Shown one piece after another: positions 10,122-13,437 of a stretch of DNA of 64,000 bases; within the stretch, counting starts at the first letter, position 1, and every line of letters starts with the position of its first letter. Below the pieces are notes generated by a model. It did not search any database and was not told the origin of the DNA. It worked only from the letters and a program-made list of their open reading frames with translations. The stretch is from the NCBI RefSeq assembly GCF_024662215.1, contig NZ_CP096115.1, positions 2,492,935-2,556,934 on the forward strand, written 5' to 3'. Both the position numbers and the translations under genes were made by a program. This stretch comes from Methanoplanus endosymbiosus (GTDB taxonomy: Archaea > Halobacteriota > Methanomicrobia > Methanomicrobiales > Methanomicrobiaceae).

Positions 10122-11183
10122 ATGGTTAAGTCTCAGAAAAGTGGTTCTGTTGCTCTGAACAGAATGATATATTCACTTTTTTTTCTATTTGTGAGTATCT
10201 GCCTTATTTTAACAGCCGGATGCACAGGCAGTGAAAGTCCCTCTCCGGCAGCAGAGGATGAAGAGAATGCTGTTGTTATTTCTCCGGATAACAGCGTGGA
10301 TTACAGTGATTCATCCAACTGGATCTCAGTTCCGGCTATAGATAAAGAGGTTGATGTATTCTACGTCTATCCGACAGTCAGCGGCAATGAAACCGGCCTG
10401 ATGGATATAACAAATGAAGATGAAAGAGCTCTGGCAGAGGGTGTCTTTACATCACAGGGCAGTGTATTTGAGTCAAATGCAAATGTTTATGCTCCTTATT
10501 ACCGTCAGATGTCAACCGGTGCTGATATGACTCAGACTCCGGTGGCAACTGACATTAAGGAATTTAAGATAGGTGCAGCTGACGTTGAGGATGCTTTTGA
10601 TTATTACCTGAATAATTACAATGAAGGTCGTCCCTTTATCCTTGCAGGACACAGCCAGGGAACAATGGCACTTATGGAGCTTCTTAAGGATCGCTTTGGA
10701 GACGATGAGAAACTCCGCAGTCAGATGGTTGCAGCTTACCTGATTGGATATACCGTAACTGACGAAGATCTCGAAAAATACGGTCTTAAGGCAGCAGAGT
10801 CTGCAAATGATACCAGCGTTGTCATAACATACAATACCCAGTCTGCAACCTCCGAAGGCGGCCGTATGCTTCTTCCGGGTGCAATCTGTATCAATCCTTT
10901 AAACTGGAAGACAGATTCAACCTATGCCCCGGCATCTGAAAACCTCGGTGCAAGGTTTTACAATGATTCAACCGGAGAATTCCTGCGTGAAGTGGCTAAT
11001 TACACTGGTGCTGAGATCAACCCGGAGAACGGGGCACTGATAACAGAGATTCCCGAAGGTGAAGTTCTGGACCTCGGTCCTCACGGAGAAGGTGTCTATC
11101 ACCGCTATGACATCTCATTCTGGTGGAGGAATCTTGAGGAGAATGTTGGTGAGAGAATTGATGCGTATTTGATGCAAAATTAA
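10122..11183 (+). CDS. DUF3089-type alpha/beta hydrolase lipoprotein (copy 1)
   Basis: Protein of 353 aa with a lipoprotein signal (LILTAGCTGSE, lipobox Cys near 33) and a DUF3089-like alpha/beta-hydrolase body. The start of the domain reads DVFYVYPTVSGN; the nucleophile elbow is AGHSQGTMAL (Ser near 182). A late HGEGVYHRYD segment may supply the catalytic His. The substrate is unknown; the family probably contains surface esterases or amidases. The gene is a tandem duplicate of the one at 11302, about 118 nt downstream, with long identical stretches such as LNWKTDSTYAPASENLGARF. Both begin with nearly the same MVKSQK N-terminus. Confidence 0.85.
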   Translation: MVKSQKSGSVALNRMIYSLFFLFVSICLILTAGCTGSESPSPAAEDEENAVVISPDNSVDYSDSSNWISVPAIDKEVDVFYVYPTVSGNETGLMDITNEDERALAEGVFTSQGSVFESNANVYAPYYRQMSTGADMTQTPVATDIKEFKIGAADVEDAFDYYLNNYNEGRPFILAGHSQGTMALMELLKDRFGDDEKLRSQMVAAYLIGYTVTDEDLEKYGLKAAESANDTSVVITYNTQSATSEGGRMLLPGAICINPLNWKTDSTYAPASENLGARFYNDSTGEFLREVANYTGAEINPENGALITEIPEGEVLDLGPHGEGVYHRYDISFWWRNLEENVGERIDAYLMQN

Positions 11184-11301: not shown

Positions 11302-12369
11302 ATGGTAAAGTCTCAGAAAAGGGATTCTGTTGCAGTAAACAGATCCGTTTTTTCTCTTATTCTGTTTGTATTTGTTGGAATCTGCCTTATTCTGACGGCC
11401 GGCTGCACAGGTGCCGACAGTCAGGTTCCGGCAGAAGAAAATGAACAGAATGCTGTTGTTATTTCTCCGGATAACAGCGTTGATTACAGTGATTCATACA
11501 ACTGGCTCTCTCTGCCGGCCGCAGAAAAGGAAGTGGATGTCTTTTATGTCTATCCGACTGTCAGCGGCAATTCATCCGGTTCAATGCTTATAACGGATGA
11601 TGTAGACCGGGCACTTGCCCAGGGTATCCTTGAGGCACAGGCAGGCGTGTATCAGTCAGATGCCAACGTCTTTGCCCCTTACTACCGGCAGATGTCAACC
11701 GGTGTTCAGATGTCGGGAGATGATATGCTTGCAACCGATACAAATGAGTTTAAGCAGGGTGCTGCCGATGTTTCAGATGCCTTTGATTATTATATCAGTA
11801 ATCTCAATGAAGGCCGGCCTTTTATCATTGCAGGTCACAGCCAGGGAACAATGGCACTTATTGAGCTTATTAAAGATCGCTTCGGTGACGATGAAGAGCT
11901 TCGCAGCCGGATGGTTGCAGCGTATCTTATCGGCTATACTGTAACAGACGATGATCTTGCAAAAGCCGGTCTTACAGCGGCCAAAGGGGCAGATGATACC
12001 GGAGTTGTTGTCACCTACAATTCCCAGTCCCCGACTTCAGTTGGCGGCCCTATGCTGATGGAGGGTGCACACTGCATAAACCCCCTGAACTGGAAGACAG
12101 ATTCAACCTATGCTCCTGCATCTGAAAATCTCGGTGCAAGGTTTTACAACGATTCAACCGGAGAATTCCTGCGTGAGGTTGGCAATTACTCCGATGCACA
12201 GATTGATATGGAAACAATGGCACTGACAACGACGATTCCGGAAGGAGAAAATCTGGACACAGGTTCATATCCGGAAGGAGTCTATCACCGCTATGACTAC
12301 GCATTCTGGTACAGAAATCTTGAAGAGAATGTCGGCGACAGGATTGATGCGTATCTGAATCAGAAATGA
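11302..12369 (+). CDS. DUF3089-type alpha/beta hydrolase lipoprotein (copy 2)
   Basis: Tandem paralog (355 aa) of the preceding gene. It keeps the lipobox (LILTAGCTGAD), the YPTVSGN region, the nucleophile motif AGHSQGTMAL and the C-terminal YHRYDYAFWYRNLEENVGDR. The two copies differ mostly in the stalk after the lipobox and in the loop around residues 90-115. That is consistent with an older duplication and selection on the enzyme core. A bidirectional-looking terminator follows at 12380-12418. Confidence 0.85.
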   Translation: MVKSQKRDSVAVNRSVFSLILFVFVGICLILTAGCTGADSQVPAEENEQNAVVISPDNSVDYSDSYNWLSLPAAEKEVDVFYVYPTVSGNSSGSMLITDDVDRALAQGILEAQAGVYQSDANVFAPYYRQMSTGVQMSGDDMLATDTNEFKQGAADVSDAFDYYISNLNEGRPFIIAGHSQGTMALIELIKDRFGDDEELRSRMVAAYLIGYTVTDDDLAKAGLTAAKGADDTGVVVTYNSQSPTSVGGPMLMEGAHCINPLNWKTDSTYAPASENLGARFYNDSTGEFLREVGNYSDAQIDMETMALTTTIPEGENLDTGSYPEGVYHRYDYAFWYRNLEENVGDRIDAYLNQK

Positions 12370-12424: not shown

Positions 12425-13084
12425 CTATTCTTTATCCGGAGAGTTATTCTCCCTGTAATACCTGCACAACTCTTTTATGCAGCATTTGTCACAGGCAGGT
12501 TTTTTTGCATCGCAGACTGATCTTCCGTGTGAGATGAGCAGGAAGTTTATCTTTCCCCAGGCTTCTTTAGGAAAGAGCGATGTGAGATCTCTCTCAATTT
12601 TGTCGGGACTGGTATTGTCTGTCATCCCAAGCCTGAAAGATACCCGTTTCACATGGGTGTCAACCGCAATTCCGGCATCTATCCCGTAGGCATGGTTCAG
12701 GACAATATTTGCCGTTTTTCTGCCGACACCCGGAAGTTTTACAAGTTCTTCCATGCTGTCCGGAACAATTCCCTCATATTCCCTGACAAGCATCTCAGAT
12801 GCGCCCCTGATATTCTTTGATTTTGCCCTGTAAAATCCGGTAGGTCTGATGATCTCCTCAATTTTAGAGATATCAGCATCTGCCATAGAAGACGGGTCGG
12901 GGTAGGCTTCAAAAAGTCTGCCCTTTACTGAATTGACTGTTCTGTCAGTGGTCTGTGCACTGAGAATGGTCATTATCAGAATCTGGAAGGGATTGTCAAA
13001 TTCAAGGAAATTAAGGTTAGTATCCTCTCTGATGTATTGATTAAAAAGAACAGAAAAGATCCTGCATGCAGTATCTTTCAACAT
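12425..13084 (-). CDS. nth: Endonuclease III (DNA glycosylase/AP lyase)
   Basis: Base-excision repair enzyme for oxidised pyrimidines. From the ATG at 13084 the protein has 219 aa, close to the usual 210-220. The helix-hairpin-helix is LPGVGRKTANIV with the catalytic Lys, the catalytic Asp is in VDTHVKRVSFRLG, and the [4Fe-4S] loop has the spacing C-X6-C-X2-C-X5-C at the C-terminus. The open frame extends upstream to 13228, but that part is the tRNA-Pro gene read in frame, so the longer start is rejected. The start codon lies only 2 nt beyond the tRNA 3' end and has no ribosome-binding site. The mRNA is therefore probably leaderless after tRNA processing. Confidence 0.94.
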   Translation of the reverse strand: MLKDTACRIFSVLFNQYIREDTNLNFLEFDNPFQILIMTILSAQTTDRTVNSVKGRLFEAYPDPSSMADADISKIEEIIRPTGFYRAKSKNIRGASEMLVREYEGIVPDSMEELVKLPGVGRKTANIVLNHAYGIDAGIAVDTHVKRVSFRLGMTDNTSPDKIERDLTSLFPKEAWGKINFLLISHGRSVCDAKKPACDKCCIKELCRYYRENNSPDKE

Positions 13085-13086
13085 TA

Positions 13087-13161
13087 TGGGGTAGGGCAGA
13101 TTCGAACTGCCGTCAAAGCGTCCCAAACGCTCTAGGATGGACCAGGCTACCCTACTACCCC
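13087..13161 (-). tRNA. tRNA-Pro (TGG)
   Basis: Cloverleaf of 75 nt read on the minus strand. The acceptor GGGGTAG pairs with CTACCCC, with discriminator A at 13087. The anticodon stem GAGCG/CGCTT encloses loop TTTGGGA with anticodon TGG at 13123-13125. G37 follows the anticodon, as expected for tRNA-Pro. The T-arm contains GTTCGAATC. CCA is not encoded and no intron is seen. The nth start codon begins 2 nt after the 3' end on the same strand. Confidence 0.95.
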
Positions 13162-13437
13162 GTGGGACAACATATATTGAACGTCTGCATATTAATGTCT
13201 GCCGATTTGGGTCTGAATTCCGGTGCAATGGGAGTTATCACGAATTTCCTGCAAATATTCATATTGTGGGCGTTTATTCGGATTTAAACAATTTATTCTG
13301 GTGTTTTTCTGAGATGGTGTAATGTTCCTGAAGATCTGCACAGGCAGAATAAAAAGAGATTTTTCCGGTATACCGGTTCCGGGAGTGCCAAAAAGCGCAG
13401 TGACTCTCAGGCAGTTCTTGCTTTAGTTATTTCCGGA

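Follow-up and report, generated by a model that had tools for sequence, protein, structure and literature searches.

A tRNA-Pro gene immediately upstream of nth is conserved across an archaeal order and may yield a near-leaderless mRNA through tRNA 3′ processing

The start codon of nth, which codes for endonuclease III, is located only 2 nt past the 3′ end of a tRNA-Pro gene in the archaeal genome examined here, and the same pairing of genes is present throughout the order to which this organism belongs, probably Methanomicrobiales. Given the arrangement of sequence features at these loci, the two genes are likely to form one transcription unit, from which cleavage by tRNase Z would free an nth mRNA with little or no leader. 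The genome assembly consists of a single 3.16-Mb contig. The organism is a methanogen, as shown by the presence of a gene for McrA (967 bits). All coordinates given below without a genome label refer to the window, meaning the whole stretch of 64,000 nucleotides that was analyzed.

The tRNA-Pro gene occupies positions 13087..13161 on the minus strand. It carries the anticodon TGG, folds into an intact cloverleaf according to ARAGORN, and scores 55.1 bits against the Rfam model RF00005, for which the cut-off is 29, which rules out the possibility that it is a pseudogene. All of its arms are intact, the acceptor stem reads GGGGTAG/CTACCCC, and the discriminator base next to it is A, at 13087, with no CCA encoded in the gene. 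Among the 55 tRNAs scanned in the genome, this is the single copy of a TGG tRNA-Pro. Next comes a gap composed of the two nucleotides TA (13085..13086, minus strand), which would be both the 3′ trailer of the tRNA and the entire 5′ leader of the nth mRNA if tRNase Z cuts at its predicted site between 13087 and 13086 on this strand. The ATG of nth begins at 13084, again on the same strand, and thus the close spacing described in the first-pass annotation of this DNA was confirmed. In the predicted RNA fold, the acceptor stem forms and the AUG is positioned just outside it.

The nth gene itself (12425..13084, minus strand) extends from the ATG at 13084-13082 to the end of the open reading frame (ORF) at 12425 and encodes a protein of 219 amino acids. 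This product scores 234.5 bits against TIGR01083, the NCBIfam model for endonuclease III (cut-off 211.7), and matches to Pfam domains HhH-GPD (PF00730) and HHH (PF00633) likewise exceed their cut-offs. The catalytic Lys/Asp pair and the Cys4 iron-sulfur loop, which we take to be the characteristic motifs of Nth proteins, are both readable in the sequence as LPGVGRKTA...VDTHV and C-x6-C-x2-C-x5-C. The ATG at 13084 is supported as the start codon because the N-terminus of the protein, which has the form M-x(4)-A-C-x-I, aligns from this codon across the order. In L074, from the third genome of the clade, the identical 2-nt TA gap is followed by the sole in-frame ATG past the tRNA. A mis-called start at 13084 is ruled out by these two observations. 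The next codon is TTG here and ATG in L073, and a start one codon downstream, which would give a leader of 5 nt, is retained as a second candidate.

Conservation of this arrangement was evaluated with two sets of loci from the order. The first is an unselected set of 60 related genomes, from which 57 nth loci were read. Two of these loci (L088 and L113) start at a contig end, leaving 55 that are usable, and all 55 carry the linkage. The gap between tRNA and nth has a median of 6 nt in these loci and lies between 2 and 19 nt for all but two of the 55, which have gaps of 96 and 446 nt. Archaeal mRNAs have been defined as leaderless when the leader is at most 8 nt in length (PMC4247193), and 40 of the 55 gaps fall within this limit. 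The second set derives from a strict search pattern, in which the tRNA-Pro 3′ end must be followed by ATG within 20 nt; this pattern, which by itself does not establish that the ATG belongs to nth, is matched in 153 of 199 genomes of the order, and the reversed control gave four hits in all. Of the 46 genomes that fail the pattern, 34 were searched for nth and 23 gave a match. In every one of these 23 loci, nth is again found behind tRNA-Pro, with gaps of 19 nt or less in 13 and of 27-64 nt in 10, proportions that reflect a set picked for failing the pattern and hence enriched for long gaps. Alignment indicates that nth starts with GTG, 2-3 nt past the tRNA, in three of the 13 short-gap loci of this set. 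Sequence irregularities were also encountered, such as a tRNA that reads mostly as N with its 3′ part alone visible (L279) and a variant tRNA 3′ end (L278).

Overall, tRNA-Pro(TGG) is situated directly 5′ of nth on the same strand in 78 of the 78 order loci whose contig reaches upstream, and so the synteny that had been put forward as a check on the original observation proves to be order-wide. Gene order and spacing are retained across six family groups, and the gap sequences have diverged. Of 76 loci, 68 have T and eight have C as the first base past the discriminator. A rule by which the gap must always be very short was considered and dropped, given gaps of 27-446 nt in 10 of the 23 pattern-failing loci and two of the 55 unselected ones. 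Gaps are thus 19 nt or less in 66 of the 78 loci, and an exact spacing of 2 nt is not obligatory because 12 of 78 have widened to 27-446 nt. Two of the wide gaps have recognizable features. Approximately 446 nt have been inserted between tRNA-Pro and nth in L106 (genome G044), which represents a naturally occurring departure from the short-gap arrangement, and genome G179 has a tRNA-Pro 3′ flank identical to that of L106. The gap of L084 (G024) has been widened to 96 nt by AATGAAATCAA-type repeats, and its congener L083 retains 7 nt. Separately, contigs C204 and C258 of the draft genome G005 carry two additional junctions between tRNA-Pro and ATG that differ in sequence type from its own, possibly as a result of contamination.

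A different outcome was obtained outside the order. Of the 119 genomes in a phylum-wide sample, 97 had nth-like matches, including 74 outside the order. No tRNA was observed near nth in any of the 47 of these 74 loci that were inspected, seven with flanks of 1.5 kb and 40 with up to 1 kb of upstream sequence (L216 being shorter). Among 71 more distant nth loci, a tRNA is present in three, each time on the strand opposite to nth. Chance adjacency of the two genes is ruled out by the comparison of 78/78 loci within the order with 0/47 outside it. A rapidly built tree of 82 nth proteins separates the 76 sequences of the order from six outgroup rows with a support of 95, and the long-gap label needs five changes on this tree, which was produced by a short search and includes 18 weak forks. 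These patterns fit a linkage that arose once, with a short gap, and in which the gap was later widened several times.

A restricted distribution of this kind is also what might be expected from an ancestral compaction accident that became frozen and has been hitch-hiking with an essential tRNA, with low read-through into nth and no functional link between the genes. The limitation of the linkage to one order, which may reflect one ancestral event, and the tolerance of wide gaps in 12 of 78 loci both speak for such a history, which we consider possible though less likely than not. Retention of order and spacing across the six family groups, despite diverged gap sequences, argues against it. Moreover, a frozen accident concerns the adaptive value of the arrangement and is compatible with the processing mechanism proposed here.

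The pair is also unusual within its own genome, for which 57 tRNA matches were obtained with Rfam and 55 distinct tRNAs with ARAGORN on the fetched loci. Only two of the 55 tRNAs are followed within 20 nt by the start of a same-strand ORF of at least 100 amino acids, and nth is the sole example that begins with ATG. The other is a TTG-started frame 8 nt behind tRNA-Asp, whose match to a Condensation domain is below the Pfam cut-off. In genome G055, three of 47 tRNAs have such a close ORF, and tRNA-Pro-nth is the only pair common to both genomes. The sequence TTTT occurs within 25 nt downstream of 38 of the 55 tRNAs and is missing downstream of the tRNA-Pro of nth, where the gap is TA. A scan of the genome for GTTCRANYC followed by ATG gave 18 hits, only two of which overlap Rfam tRNAs, and cannot serve as evidence on its own because the reversed control gave 17.

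Several other arrangements were noted during this survey. An ORF of 149 amino acids follows tRNA-Ser(GCT) at 32 nt in L253 (G000) and at 33 nt in L316 (G055), and in G000 it encodes ribosomal protein S13 (PF00416). The order may share another such unit here, in which a protein gene with a leader of ordinary length follows a tRNA. In L239 (G000:C1:2639410-2640782), a phage integrase family ORF (PF00589) is located 63 nt behind tRNA-Glu and likely belongs to an integrated element that uses this tRNA as its attachment site. The genes for tRNA Gly TCC and Val CAC are 2 nt apart on the same strand in G055 (G055:C1:2242351-2242497), and one cut may nearly mature both tRNAs. Finally, the window includes tandem paralogous ORFs for secreted or lipoprotein-like proteins of 353 and 355 amino acids (10122-11183 and 11302-12369, plus strand) that are closely similar at both ends.

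Signals that might direct transcription were found upstream of the tRNA. A TATA-like box, ATTAATAT, is present at 13189..13196 on the minus strand, which corresponds to -35..-28 of the tRNA, and is a candidate promoter of the tRNA-Pro-nth unit. A second A/T element, AATATATG, is present at 13171..13178 on the same strand (-17..-10 of the tRNA). It lies downstream of the ATTAATAT box by roughly the spacing between a TATA box and a start site and is a candidate initiation region. Peaks of A/T content are conserved at -38..-32 and -16..-10 upstream of the tRNA in 74 aligned order loci, and an A/T run of six or more occurs upstream of the tRNA in 53 of 63 loci. The distance from TATA box to start in archaea has been given as about 23 bp (PMC4247193), and the two conserved A/T boxes match a TATA box and start region at this usual distance. 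A scan for sigma-70 promoters is uninformative for an archaeon.

Alternatively, the tRNA might be transcribed separately, with a promoter located within its gene directing a primary leaderless nth transcript that starts at or beside the ATG. Primary transcripts of this leaderless kind are common among archaeal mRNAs (PMC4247193). The TATA box for such a transcript should be located in a zone at about -42..-19 of nth, which is the GC-rich body of the tRNA. The longest A/T run in this zone is four or fewer in 64 of 64 short-gap loci, whereas about 49% of random 24-mers from the window contain a run of five or more, and we consider a separate nth promoter very unlikely. Likewise, a Shine-Dalgarno match of at least 5 nt is found in the gap of none of 63 short-gap loci, and a 4-nt match in three of 63. 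The earlier assertion that there is no space for a promoter or ribosome site between tRNA-Pro and nth is thus supported. The absent Shine-Dalgarno sequence is only modest evidence when taken alone, because use of this signal is weak genome-wide, as judged by matches of at least 4 nt near the candidate ATG in 32 of 49 ORFs in the window versus 21.7 in shuffled sequences.

The proposed mechanism for the tRNA-Pro(UGG)-nth unit can be described as follows. A TATA-type promoter upstream of the tRNA would drive both genes, with RNA polymerase continuing through tRNA-Pro into nth. RNase P would process the tRNA at its 5′ end and tRNase Z at its 3′ end, directly past the discriminator base. The tRNase Z cut alone would thereby define the tRNA 3′ end and also produce an nth mRNA that begins with a 2-nt leader. 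The CCA enzyme would then add CCA to the tRNA, and ribosomes would start on the mRNA through the leaderless route used in archaea. Co-transcription, the position of the cut, and translation without a leader are each inferred. Genes for two of the enzymes are present in the genome, namely a tRNase Z (300.1 bits, just above the model cut-off) and an archaeal CCA-adding enzyme (475.3 bits). tRNase Z has been described as the endonuclease of tRNA 3′ processing in archaea, bacteria, and eukaryotes, and the enzyme of H. volcanii also cleaves 5S rRNA precursors (PMC3296008). Release of an almost leaderless nth mRNA by RNase Z, as envisioned in the first-pass annotation, is thus upheld in so far as the enzyme is encoded and the predicted cut leaves a 2-nt leader, with the release itself standing as a prediction.

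Read-through from the tRNA into nth need not be complete. Some of the short gaps are T-rich, with up to TTTTTTT before the ATG, and such sequences could terminate transcription in archaea, which would count against a read-through model. Alternatively, the T-rich gaps in several relatives could act as partial terminators, with only a fraction of transcripts reaching nth. The first-pass annotation went further in proposing that tRNA processing sets nth expression, but the level might instead depend on how often polymerase reads past the tRNA, on the tRNA promoter, or on decay of the mRNA.

The genes might also be co-transcribed with ribosomes translating nth on the intact transcript or on one processed in another way, in which case tRNase Z would not create the 5′ end of the mRNA. 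A different endonuclease might act instead, or 5′-3′ trimming might halt at the AUG, and archaea do possess 5′-3′ exonucleases. Even so, tRNase Z is normally used for 3′ maturation of a tRNA that lacks an encoded CCA, and an intact tRNA so close to the AUG, only 2 nt away, would lie in the path by which ribosomes enter and probably impede them. We regard this route as quite unlikely, and release of the nth mRNA by tRNase Z is preferred. A tRNA can nevertheless reside inside the 5′-UTR of an archaeal mRNA, as reported for TK0306 of T. kodakarensis (PMC4247193).

This T. kodakarensis locus is a close archaeal parallel, since a tRNA is located upstream of a protein gene and is co-transcribed with it, as is inferred for tRNA-Pro-nth. 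The gene encodes a DEAD-box helicase, and its tRNA-Lys resides within a leader of 159 nt; neither release of a leaderless mRNA nor lineage-wide conservation is claimed in the available portions of that report (PMC4247193). Like nth, archaeal leaderless mRNAs in general lack a Shine-Dalgarno sequence, and the nth leader would be 2 nt if the RNA is cut past the discriminator. The ends of the known examples are set by transcription start sites, whereas the nth 5′ end would arise by RNA cleavage. In bacteria, the operons thrU-tyrU-glyT-thrT-tufB and metY-nusA also carry tRNAs upstream of a co-transcribed protein gene, as proposed for the unit described here, and these have ordinary leaders with ribosome sites.

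A further resemblance is to tRNA punctuation in mitochondria, where RNase P and RNase Z excise tRNAs and thereby release mRNAs. In that system, as here, the tRNA abuts the ORF. Mitochondrial leaders range from zero to a few nucleotides and the mRNA 5′ end coincides with the tRNA 3′ end (PMC8437803, PMC9881170), both of which are predicted for nth. The present case involves one gene pair on an archaeal chromosome rather than a whole genome. Mitochondrial ORFs have tRNAs on both sides and nth has one on its 5′ side only, with no tRNA detected downstream of nth within the window by ARAGORN. For lack of flanking tRNAs on both sides, and because cleavage is predicted only, tRNA-Pro-nth is not classed as punctuation of the mitochondrial type. 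Under the explanation that we favor, it would be an archaeal counterpart of that system by analogy. No published account of a tRNA-Pro-nth unit was found in a search of the open-access literature.

If the favored explanation is correct, a single endonuclease cut in a free-living archaeon would define where a tRNA ends and where a leaderless mRNA begins, and would do so order-wide, connecting the tRNA punctuation of mitochondria with the chromosomes of cells. The unit would also offer a defined substrate for learning how ribosomes start on leaderless mRNAs with a 5′ monophosphate, and any dependence of DNA-repair output on tRNA production would become testable. A stronger proposal, which we consider rather doubtful, is that maturation of the sole TGG tRNA-Pro obligatorily makes the translatable mRNA of this base-excision repair enzyme, such that repair capacity depends, at the post-transcriptional level, on the synthesis of tRNA and the activity of tRNase Z. 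Such obligatory coupling, if true, would mean that chromosomal tRNA punctuation serves as regulation in archaea.
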